A stretch of 32,453 nucleotides of DNA, taken from positions 1 to 32,453 of the forward strand of contig NZ_JACJKB010000019.1 of the NCBI RefSeq assembly GCF_016900375.1. Reading direction: 5' to 3'. The notes under the pieces are model-generated. The model saw only the letters and a program-made list of their open reading frames with translations, was not told the DNA's origin and did not search any database. Of this stretch, positions 17,460-30,411 are shown piece by piece. Positions within the stretch are counted from its first letter, which is position 1. Every line of letters begins with the position of its first letter. The translations under genes and the position numbers were made by a program. This DNA comes from Collinsella tanakaei (GTDB taxonomy: Bacteria > Actinomycetota > Coriobacteriia > Coriobacteriales > Coriobacteriaceae).

Positions 17460-17496
17460 TTTTACCGCCAATGGCGGTAAAATGATGGCGGTAAAA
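17460..17496 (+). promoter_or_regulatory. palindromic operator before fic with a third half-site
   Basis: TTTTACCGCC-AAT-GGCGGTAAAA (17460-17482) is a perfect ten-base inverted repeat. The half-site GGCGGTAAAA is repeated directly at 17487-17496, 14 bases from the previous one, and reaches the fic ribosome site (AAAGGAGG). Occupancy would cover the promoter or the ribosome site. The winged-helix tail of the Fic protein is a likely ligand. Confidence 0.6.
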
Positions 17497-17505
17497 GGAG
17501 GCCGC

Positions 17506-18462
17506 ATGGGATACAAACCACCCTTTGAAAGAACGCCGGAGATCGATAACCTCTGCATGGAGATTGCAGAGCTCGTCGGCAAACTGCACCCAACCTCTAG
17601 CCTTAGCACGGATCCCACCCTTCACCGGGAGCTGCGCATCCGCACCATCCGCTCCTCCCTCATGATTGAAGGAAACACGCTTTCCGAAGAAGCCGTAACG
17701 GCAATCATGGACGGCAAACGCGTCCTTGGCCCGGCAAAGGACATTCTCGAAGTAGAGAACGCCAAGCGAGCTTATGGGCTTATGGGCGTTCTCAACCCGC
17801 TCAGCCCAGACGACCTGCTCCATGCGCACCGTATCATGATGGATGGGCTCATCGAGCATGCCGGCTGCTTCCGTTCTCGCGATGTCGGGGTCTTCGACGG
17901 CGACGCCCTCATCCATGCCGGCACACCGGCAAATTACGTTCCGCAGGTCATGGCAGACCTTTTCAGCTGGCTTGCAACAACCGAGCTGCACCCGCTCGTC
18001 ACGTCGTGCATCTTCCATTACGAGTTCGAATTCATCCACCCCTTCGCTGACGGTAACGGACGAATTGGAAGGCTTTGGCACACGTTGCTGCTCTCGCATT
18101 GGCGGCCCGTGCTCGCCTGGCTTCCCATCGAAAGCGTCATTCGCGAGCGTCAGCAGGAATACTACAGGGCGTTGGCGACTTCCAACGCCGAAGGCTCCTC
18201 AGAGCGTTTTGTCGCGTTCATGCTGCACGTTATCCGCGATGCATTGCTCCCCTTCTCCATTCCTGAAGACGAACATGAGAGCCGCTCTCGCCAGGCACTG
18301 GATTACTTTTCGAAAAACCCCAAGGGCACCGTTGCCGAACTTGCTGCCCTGCTCGGATGCTCCAAGCGATCTGCCGAGCGGCTCGTGGCAAATCTGCGCA
18401 AGAGCGACAAGCTCAAACGAGACGGCAGCGCGCGCGGCGGCACGTGGATCGTCAGCGGCTAA
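17506..18462 (+). CDS. fic: Fic-family protein with winged-helix C-terminus
   Basis: The ATG at 17506 follows AAAGGAGG and is preferred over one at 17482, which lies in the operator; the product is 318 residues. The Fic core motif HPFADGNGRIGR (178-189) is intact, so the enzyme should transfer AMP or another nucleotide group to a protein hydroxyl. The self-inhibitory motif SLMIEG (51-56) lies N-terminal, as in class II Fic proteins, and its Glu 55 should block ATP. The C-terminal 60 residues hold a helix-turn-helix (VAELAALLGCSKRSAERLVA) and a wing, fitting autoregulation through the palindrome upstream. The target is unknown. It may be a stress or phage-triggered toxin held in check by its own helix, or a housekeeping regulator. 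Confidence 0.9.
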   Translation: MGYKPPFERTPEIDNLCMEIAELVGKLHPTSSLSTDPTLHRELRIRTIRSSLMIEGNTLSEEAVTAIMDGKRVLGPAKDILEVENAKRAYGLMGVLNPLSPDDLLHAHRIMMDGLIEHAGCFRSRDVGVFDGDALIHAGTPANYVPQVMADLFSWLATTELHPLVTSCIFHYEFEFIHPFADGNGRIGRLWHTLLLSHWRPVLAWLPIESVIRERQQEYYRALATSNAEGSSERFVAFMLHVIRDALLPFSIPEDEHESRSRQALDYFSKNPKGTVAELAALLGCSKRSAERLVANLRKSDKLKRDGSARGGTWIVSG

Positions 18463-18477
18463 GGTCGGCCGCATCCC

Positions 18478-18506
18478 GACAAGTTTGCACCCGGCACCAT
18501 CTTGTC
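18478..18506. repeat. 29-bp interspersed repeat, copy 1
   Basis: It starts GACAAGTTTG and ends CATCTTGTC; the outer six bases are inverted repeats (GACAAG/CTTGTC). It matches 27 of 29 bases with the copy at 29580-29608. It sits 58 bases before the aminopeptidase start. Confidence 0.7.
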
Positions 18507-26120: not shown

Positions 26121-26140
26121 CTGAACCACAACTGCATATC

Positions 26141-26233
26141 ACGGGGAGCTTGCAGGACACCACGGCAGGCTGAGAGGGGGCGCGACCTGCCCCGACCCGA
26201 CGAACCTGATATGGGTAATGCCAACGAAGGGAG
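26141..26233 (+). promoter_or_regulatory. TPP riboswitch (THI box)
   Basis: The conserved parts are present in order: GGGGAGC, GGCTGAGAGGG, the P3 stem with CGACCTGCCCC, then GACCCGACGAACCTGATATG, GGTAATGCC and AACGAAGGGAG. The final GAAGGGAG also serves as the thiC ribosome site, eight bases before the ATG at 26241. Binding of thiamine pyrophosphate should therefore hide it and stop translation. Confidence 0.95.
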
Positions 26234-26240
26234 TATGCGT

Positions 26241-27572
<1,332 letters not shown>

Positions 27573-28069: not shown

Positions 28070-28903
28070 ATGGATAGCAAGGTTTTGGGTTCTGCGCTGG
28101 AGAACGTTCGCTCGCAGGTGCCGCTGGTGCACTGCATCACCAACTACGTGACAGTGAACGACTGCGCGAACGCGCTTCTGGCGTGCGGCGGCTCCCCCAT
28201 CATGAGCGACGAGCCGGAAGACGTGGCCGACATCACGTCGATCTGCGGCGGCCTTGTGCTGAACATCGGCACGCTGAACGCGCGCTCCATCGAGGGCATG
28301 CACGTGGCGGGCGCCCGCGCCGGCGAGCTCGGGCACGCCATCGTGCTCGACCCGGTGGGCGCCGGCGCCTCCGCCCTGCGCACCAAGACGGCGGCCGATC
28401 TCATCGACACGCTGCCCATCACCGTGGTGCGCGGCAACATGAGCGAGGTCAAGACCATCGCCGGCACGGCTGCCGCCACCCGCGGCGTCGACGTCAACCC
28501 TGACGACGCCGTGACCGAGGACAACCTCGCCGCAAGCGCTGCCTTCGCACGCGAGCTCGCTGCCAAGCTGGGCTGCGTCGTGGCCATCACCGGTGCCATC
28601 GACATCGTGGCCTCCGCCGACCGTGCCGTCGCCATCCGCAACGGCGTGGCCACCATGGGTAAGATCACCGGCACGGGTTGCATGCTCACCTGCGTAGTGG
28701 CCGCCTACGCCGTGGCCAACCCCGACGACGTCTTCGGTGCCACCGTGGCCGCCATCGCCGGGCACGGTCTTGCCGGCGAGGTCGCCGCGGCGCGCATGAC
28801 GCCCGCCGACGGCAACGGCAGCTTCCGCACCTACCTGCTCGACGCCATCTGCAACATGAGCGCCGACCAACTCGTGGCCGGTGCCAAGATCGAGGAGCTG
28901 TAA
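28070..28903 (+). CDS. thiM: hydroxyethylthiazole kinase ThiM
   Basis: The ATG at 28070 is chosen because the protein then starts as the family does (VPLVHCITNYVTVNDCANAL within 40 residues). AAAGG lies 13 bases ahead, a long spacing. The 277-residue enzyme phosphorylates thiazole alcohol salvaged from outside. The active-site loop GTGCMLT near 200 is intact, and DPVGAGAS near 100 is the usual metal-site strand. Its stop overlaps the next start (TAATG). Confidence 0.95.
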   Translation: MDSKVLGSALENVRSQVPLVHCITNYVTVNDCANALLACGGSPIMSDEPEDVADITSICGGLVLNIGTLNARSIEGMHVAGARAGELGHAIVLDPVGAGASALRTKTAADLIDTLPITVVRGNMSEVKTIAGTAAATRGVDVNPDDAVTEDNLAASAAFARELAAKLGCVVAITGAIDIVASADRAVAIRNGVATMGKITGTGCMLTCVVAAYAVANPDDVFGATVAAIAGHGLAGEVAAARMTPADGNGSFRTYLLDAICNMSADQLVAGAKIEEL

Positions 28904-30411
28904 TGAGCGCCGTCTCCGGCGCCACCGCGGGCGGCCCCGTGCAGCGCGGGGCCTTCTCGCCCGCAGACATCCGCCGTGCGCTACTGCTTTACGGCGTGAC
29001 CGACTCCGCCTGGCTTTCCGGCCGCACGCTCGCCGACTGCGTACGCCAGGCCATCGCCGGCGGCGCCACGTTCATCCAGCTGCGCGAGAAGCACATGACC
29101 ACCGACGAGCTCGTGGCTGAGGCCGCCACGATTCTACCCATCTGCCGCGCGGCGGGCGTACCCTTCGTGATCGACGACGACGTCGAGGCAGCCCTGCGAT
29201 CGGGTGCCGACGGCGTGCACGTGGGCCAGTCCGACACGGCCTGCGCCGAGGCGCGTCGCATCCTGGGGCCCGATGCCATCGTCGGCGTCTCGGCCCAAAC
29301 CGTGGAGCAGGCACTCGCCGCCCAGGCAGCCGGTGCGGACTACCTGGGCGTCGGCGCGCTCATTCCCACACCCACCAAGCCCGATGCCGTCGACGTCACG
29401 AAGGAGGAGCTCGCCCGCATCTGCGCGGCCGTTGACATCCCCGTCGTGGGCATCGGCGGGCTGCACGCGAGCACGCTCGGCGTCCTGTCGGGCACGGGCG
29501 TTGCCGGCGCTGCCGTGGTGTCGGCGATCTTTGCCGCCGGTGACATCGAGGCCGCCACGCGCGAGCTTGCCGACAAGCTGACAAGTTTGGACCTGGCACC
29601 ATCTTGTCGCCTGGCGGTGCTCTCCATCGCCGGTTCCGACTCGAGCGGCGGCGCGGGCATCCAGGCCGATATCAAGACCATCGCCGCCAACGGGCTGTTT
29701 GCCGAGACGGCCATCACCGCGCTCACCGCGCAGAACACCCTGGGCGTGCGCGACGTGCTCGAGGCCACGCCGGCCTTCGTCGCCGAGCAGATCGACGCCG
29801 TGTTCGAGGACATTCCCCCTGCGGCCGTGAAGATCGGCATGGTATCGTCCGCGGCCATCATCGAGTCCATCGCCGAGCGCCTGACGCACTGGAGCGCCGC
29901 CAACATCGTGGTCGACCCCGTCATGGTGGCAACCTCCGGCGCACGCCTGATCGGCGACGACGCGGGCGCCGCCCTGACCGACCGCCTGCTGCCGCTCGCG
30001 CGTGTGATCACGCCGAACATCCCCGAAGCCGAGGCCCTCACGGGCACGCGCATCGACTCCGAGGAGGCCCAGCAGGCCGCAGCCCGCATGCTGGCCGAGC
30101 GCTTCGGCTGCGCAGCCCTCGTCAAGGGCGGCCACGGCATCGCCGACGCCAACGACGTGCTCGCCGAGCCCGACGCCGACACGGGCGAGATTCGCATCAC
30201 GTGGTTTCGCCACGAGCGCATCGACACCGCGAACACGCACGGCACGGGCTGCACGCTGTCGTCGGCCATCGCCTGCGGCCTCGCGCGCGGCCTGACCGTG
30301 CCGGAAGCCGTCAATGCCGCCAAGGCCTACCTCACCGGCGCCCTGGCCGCCGGCCTTAACCTGGGCCACGGCTCGGGCCCGGTCGATCATATGTGGGCCT
30401 ACCGCGCCTAG
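28903..30411 (+). CDS. thiE/thiD: fused ThiE-ThiD (thiamine phosphate synthase / HMP-P kinase)
   Basis: The product has 502 residues. Residues 1 to about 225 are Thi[47 protein letters not shown] and [10 protein letters not shown]; it joins pyrimidine diphosphate to thiazole phosphate. Residues about 237-502 are Thi[36 protein letters not shown] and [12 protein letters not shown]; it phosphorylates the ThiC product twice. The joint (about 226-236) is encoded by a 29-bp interspersed repeat. The gene starts in the thiM stop (TAATG). With ThiC and ThiM it covers the pyrimidine branch, thiazole salvage and coupling. No thiazole synthesis genes are in the window. Confidence 0.95.
29580..29608. repeat. 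29-bp interspersed repeat, copy 2, inside thiE-thiD
   Basis: It starts GACAAGTTTG and ends CATCTTGTC, two mismatches from the intergenic copy at 18478-18506. Here it is read in frame and encodes the linker between the two enzyme domains. Confidence 0.75.

Follow-up and report, generated by a model that had tools for sequence, protein, structure and literature searches.

A REP-type repeat at the joint of a thiE-thiD gene fusion in Collinsella tanakaei

Repetitive extragenic palindromes (REPs) of the GTAG type are palindromes of 20 to 40 bp that occur in many copies, mostly intergenic and in inverted pairs, with an IS200-like transposase gene (RAYT) lying between inverted copies and with repeat ends that supply stop codons (PMC2817692, PMC3116915, PMC3733652). 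The repeat reported here resembles the systems presented in these texts in its palindrome, copy number, intergenic bias, inverted pairs, bracketed transposase and stop-supplying ends, and differs from them in its degenerate GTAG tag, in a transposase scoring just under the NCBIfam cut-off and in its host clade, the Coriobacteriia. The names Collinsella, Eggerthella, Atopobium and Actinobacteria do not occur in the main text of PMC3733652, and Actinobacteria does not occur in PMC2817692. Intragenic REPs and REP ends acting as stop codons have already been published, as has the proposal that flexible linkers tolerate intragenic REPs (PMC3733652); the repeat that we describe likewise lies in frame within a gene, but it marks the boundary between two genes that sister species keep apart, and the words "fusion" and "fused" are absent from the main text of that article. 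Rickettsia palindromic elements, which are translated inside genes and are in frame in many ORFs (PMC3733652, PMC2229807), offer a second parallel, as palindromic repeats translated within a gene. Finally, a preprint describes gene fusions created by a deletion between genes (PMC12803068), from which the present case differs by a junction marked by a REP; its main text does not contain the string "palindrom". Our search of open-licence literature returned no report of a REP as a gene-fusion junction with unfused sisters, and none of this family in Collinsella. The origin of bacterial domain fusions is usually reconstructed long afterwards, whereas the joint studied here retains a recognisable repeat, and its description adds, for the Coriobacteriia, a probable REP family together with a RAYT-like gene, as well as a REP-encoded linker in a metabolic enzyme.

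The window, that is the whole stretch of 32,453 nucleotides analysed, comes from the Collinsella tanakaei genome designated G000 (2.48 Mb, 87 contigs). It carries a fused thiE-thiD gene (thiED, 28903..30411, + strand) of 502 amino acids, annotated as thiamine-phosphate synthase plus HMP/HMP-P kinase. The ThiE domain (residues 29–222, 28987..29568, +) matches TIGR00693 with 193.3 bits (cut-off 145.1) up to the last model position (197/197), and the ThiD domain (residues 239–497, 29617..30393, +) matches TIGR00097 with 311.1 bits (cut-off 204.95) from model position 1. Both domains are thus whole, and dN/dS values of 0.06–0.21 in thiE and thiD pairs indicate purifying selection on both halves, which is consistent with a bifunctional ThiE-ThiD enzyme. 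Multi-domain enzymes of the PRK09517 type have the same domain order, but thiED reaches only 343.5 bits against the cut-off of 761 for that model and has a repeat-derived linker. The gene belongs to a thiamine operon consisting of a TPP riboswitch (26132..26249, +), thiC, thiM and thiED, so that thiE and thiD were probably already co-expressed as neighbours.

The 29-bp palindrome-ended repeat GACAAGTTTGNACCNGGCACCATCTTGTC is found in the window at 18478..18506 and at 29580..29608, both on the + strand, the two copies being mismatched at two positions. These are exactly the two matches present at up to three mismatches, against none in 100 dinucleotide shuffles. The first-pass annotation, which had placed one copy between genes and the other in frame at the junction of the two enzyme domains, was exact in its coordinates: the copy at 18478..18506 separates a Fic-family gene (17482–18462) from an M18 aminopeptidase gene (start at about 18564), and the copy at 29580..29608 codes, with adjoining bases, for residues 226–236 of the fused protein. 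The ThiE match stops at residue 222 and the ThiD match begins at residue 239, which puts the repeat at the joint. An AlphaFold model (18 rows, mean pLDDT 72.8) places the last ThiE helix at residues 215–228 and a ThiD strand from residue 238, with pLDDT below 50 at residues 232–235, a picture of the joint that we take only as a hint.

Counting the repeat genome-wide, as the same annotation had proposed, revealed a dispersed family: G000 holds 87 matches at up to three mismatches (47 on one strand and 40 on the other), and the reversed pattern gave 0. Among 43 genomes of the genus, the repeat occurs in eight, namely G040 (130 copies), G041 (104), G000 (87), G035 (74), G029 (20), G036 (8), G039 (4) and G014 (1); the other 35 gave no match, and the reversed control was 0 in all 43. 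At the family level, 10 of 65 genomes match the repeat, the two outside the genus with 1 and 3 copies. Relatives were named by matching stretches of about 1400 bp, identical throughout, to named records, G040, G041 and G039 corresponding to C. tanakaei strains ET10, ET30 and An368, G036 to Ca. C. stercoripullorum, G014 to C. ihumii, and G029 and G035 to uncultured Collinsella bins.

Several features suggest that the repeat belongs to the REPs, as a family confined to one Collinsella clade, an assignment that we favour as part of the overall explanation given below. Close inverted pairs are found in G000 (for example C4:37708-/37740+, C18:6464-/6504+ and C2:93727-/93799+), and folding of three repeat strings as DNA gave hairpins of -4.8 to -6.5 kcal/mol (z of -2.4 to -2.8 versus shuffles). 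One or two nucleotides past the 29-mer, CTAC is found in 9 and CTA (the complement of TAG) in 17 of the 87 copies, against control values of 0.12 and 0.16 per offset, and on the opposite side GTAG occurs in 2 copies and TAG in 6; the tag is enriched, though only a minority of copies carry it, and the thiED joint copy has no GTAG-like tag. A different arrangement was seen at G000:C65:15844-15950, where three repeats follow one another in the same direction at a period of 39 bp. The source genome encodes four Y1_Tnp genes, one of which (L113) is bracketed by inverted, in part degenerate, repeat copies, as is its relative L215 in G035. The 31 Y1_Tnp loci scanned comprised 26 with a usable gene; one-sided repeat copies were seen at L212 and L221, and at 22 of the 26 none lay within reach. 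L113 scores 76.1 bits against NF047646 (REP-associated tyrosine transposase), under the NCBIfam cut-off of 80, and is therefore called RAYT-like. From these gene and repeat arrangements, the family was probably spread by an IS200-like transposase of the RAYT type.

Repeat occupancy differs between close relatives. Twelve repeat places of G040 could be aligned to G041, six of them filled in both genomes and six without the repeat in G041; conversely, 7 of 13 compared G041 places have no repeat in G040. Only one of the six places empty in G041 is near-clean, namely G040:C9:103346, with the repeat immediately after an apparent TAG stop and GTAG also present at the empty G041 site. At another of the six, G040:C9:85703 (L228), the repeat occupies a spot at which over 400 bp of additional sequence are found in the sister G041. 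The others of the six show less simple differences.

The placement of the repeats was assessed with a purpose-built gene caller, a 3-periodic Markov model trained on the studied loci and distinct from any published tool, with copies counted as internal when at least 45 nt of the gene lay on each side. Every G000 copy was also inspected together with its flanking sequence. By the caller, 77 of the 87 copies of G000 are intergenic, nine lie over a gene end and one, in thiED, is internal. In 160 kb of G040 the corresponding figures are 15, 1 and 1 of 17 copies, the internal one being again in thiED, and in 180 kb of G041 they are 8, 2 and 0 of 10. These counts speak against the idea, put forward in the first-pass annotation, of a protein-coding repeat class comparable to the Rickettsia elements, which are in frame in many ORFs. 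In five of the nine gene-end copies of G000 (L007, L025, L156, L164, L180), the GA of the repeat completes the TGA stop of the neighbouring gene. Sixteen ORFs running across repeats were inspected by eye and mostly resemble antisense shadows of GC-rich genes, with the exception of L027 and L169. At L027, a plausible gene begins downstream of the repeat, and at about position 2188 of L169 (G000:C9:30622) a plausible protein appears to enter the repeat at its C-terminus. Gene-end overlaps may be undercounted, since the caller missed the L169 case as an end overlap.

Comparison of the eight repeat-bearing genomes, along the lines of a test against repeat-free joints that had been suggested beforehand, showed that the joint repeat goes with the fusion. 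It is present within a fused thiED in three genomes (G000, G040 and G035), and in the other five (G041, G029, G039, G036 and G014) thiE, with its own stop, and thiD, with its own start, are separate and adjacent, the repeat matching their intervals no better than shuffles. In G014 (L123), the thiE match is in two pieces, perhaps owing to a broken gene or an assembly error. The three fused genes share the left junction (CT|GACAAG), the orientation and the frame, and their linker peptide reads LTSL-D/N/Y-LAPSCR (LTSLxLAPSCR), the joint copies differing at one variable position (G, A and T). Such a near-identical peptide would suit a chance DNA match imposed by a conserved linker, but 27 of 27 fixed positions agree with the 87-copy family (control 0) and the other fusions seen carry different linkers. 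We rejected both the chance and the conserved-peptide readings, which we regard as hardly credible in view of the null counts in shuffles and in the reversed control and of the unrelated linker of the G016 and G037 fusions; protein-level conservation of the linker in other fusions, the outcome named in advance as fatal to an insertion, was thus not found. An assembly or binning artefact could be suspected from the draft state of G000 and G035 (87 and about 230 contigs), but it is very improbable, as the identical joint is seen in three separate assemblies, one of them, G040, being the record of strain ET10 with a contig of 336 kb.

The nearest unfused sister is G041, whose thiE is 93–94% identical to those of G040 and G035. 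Where G041 has 82 bp, comprising the last thiE codons with the stop, the first three thiD codons and, on visual inspection, a GC-rich hairpin and a ribosome site, G040 and G035 have 31 bp, made of the repeat followed by GC; in G000 a further 9 bp are absent to the right of the repeat. A clean presence or absence of about 29 bp at the joint had been anticipated, and what we found instead is 31 bp in place of 82 bp, therefore a replacement coinciding with the fusion and no clean insertion.

Two further genomes, G016 and G037 (L120 and L119), have a ThiE-ThiD fusion at the same locus without the repeat and with an unrelated linker, so that fusion probably occurred there at least twice and a REP is not needed for it. 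The G016 and G037 fused genes are near-identical, yet the species are not rpoB sisters, which suggests that the locus was exchanged there too. These repeat-free fusions, together with the proposal that flexible linkers tolerate intragenic REPs (PMC3733652), lend some weight to a different order of events, in which an ordinary deletion fused the genes and a REP entered the tolerant linker afterwards. We consider this order unlikely, because no repeat-free fusion was found among the eight repeat-bearing genomes and because an insert of 29–31 bp, not being divisible by three, would disrupt a fusion already in place unless a second indel compensated for it.

The fused state cuts across the trees, since both the rpoB and the thiE/thiD groupings mix fused with unfused genomes. 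In the rpoB tree, the partner of G040 is unfused G041 (90/91) and that of G000 is unfused G039 (100/99). In thiE and thiD, G000 falls beside unfused G029, and G040 clusters with G035 and G041; G035, which gave no rpoB match, was placed by thiE and thiD, and the L034 row was left out of the ThiE alignment set. To the right of the joint, the identity between G000 and G040 is 98–99% over about 150 bp, against 68–88% in later thiD windows. This recombination tract at the thiD start (29666..29828, +) has edges that are approximate and set by eye, its supporting sites lying between +120 and +252, counted from the start of the repeat. Over 1391 comparable sites (-650 to +799, minus -1 to +39), 26 join G000 with G040 against G035 with G041, and 14 of them fall within one 150-bp window from +120; in 2000 shuffles the mean maximum was 6.5 and the largest 11, none reaching 14. 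G035 and G041 share 98% identity in the +122 window, in which G040 is 86–88% identical to both; G040 is thus the odd one, and the piece was probably imported into it from a G000-like lineage. Left of the joint, three sites join G000 with G040, within 60 bp. Between +37 and +100 there are none, and four sites separate G000 from G040, G035 and G041, so that the tract has no visible continuation across the joint.

The repeat itself shows no silent divergence: none of its 10 third positions differs between G000 and G040 or G035, against 37% outside (chance about 0.01), the same absence between G040 and G035 being unremarkable (chance 0.11). The joint repeat is therefore probably younger than the lineage split, for which exchange, recurrent REP events and conversion among repeat copies would each account, and the joint was probably exchanged between species or arose more than once. 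Two or three independent fusions at a single hot spot for REP insertion with deletion would fit the absence of a sister relationship between G000 and G040 in the rpoB tree, the three letters at the variable position, the shorter right junction of G000, third positions that do not reflect the age of the split and a tract that does not visibly cross the joint. However, the left junction, orientation and frame are identical in all three species, the recombination tract adjoins the joint, and 11 of the 87 G000 copies, the joint copy included, have the haplotype that the three joints share outside the variable letter, so that three independent draws would rarely agree; we judge independent fusions slightly less probable still than a REP entering an older fusion.

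The explanation that we prefer is a REP-associated replacement that fused thiE and thiD, followed by exchange between species of the fused joint or adjacent sequence; taken as a whole, with the REP family and the bifunctional enzyme included, we hold it to be fairly likely. In an ancestor of a fused lineage, thiE and thiD would have been adjacent genes, the first still closing with a stop and the second opening with a start of its own. Either a REP next to the end of thiE or a pair of REPs would then have been involved in a deletion in which one repeat unit replaced about 82 bp, taking out the thiE stop together with the thiD ribosome site and start. The in-frame product would have been kept, since the repeat unit has no stop codon in the frame used and linkers are tolerant positions, and the unit would have become the 11-residue linker of a bifunctional ThiE-ThiD. 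Short-tract recombination would later have carried the fused joint, or at any rate the sequence next to it, between species. The repeat family, its location, the replacement relative to G041, the low dN/dS of both halves and the tract are direct observations, whereas we infer the role of the transposase, the order of events, the REP-driven deletion, the direction of exchange, the single origin and the enzyme function. Several observations count against this explanation: the tract that stops visibly short of the joint, the single near-clean place among the six of G040 that are empty in G041, the G, A or T at the variable position, which suits independent copies, the shorter right junction of G000, the tagless joint copy, the repeat-free fusions of G016 and G037, and the absence among the eight repeat-bearing genomes of an intermediate with the repeat present and thiE and thiD still separate.

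The steps of the fusion are testable, since sister species remain unfused and the junction repeat is still legible, and the repeat-free fusion of the same gene pair provides a natural control. More tentatively, REPs could act as fusion agents, rearrangement beside gene ends stripping adjacent operon genes of the intervening stop, ribosome site and start, with a stop-free unit left as a linker, with the joint then mobile between species via short tracts or through repeated REP events at the same site; we see this wider role as possible and rather doubtful. As a separate observation, the gene that follows thiED (L115), from about 1022 nt past the repeat start, aligns at about 90% with G040, G035 and G041 and poorly with G029, G039, G036 and G014.
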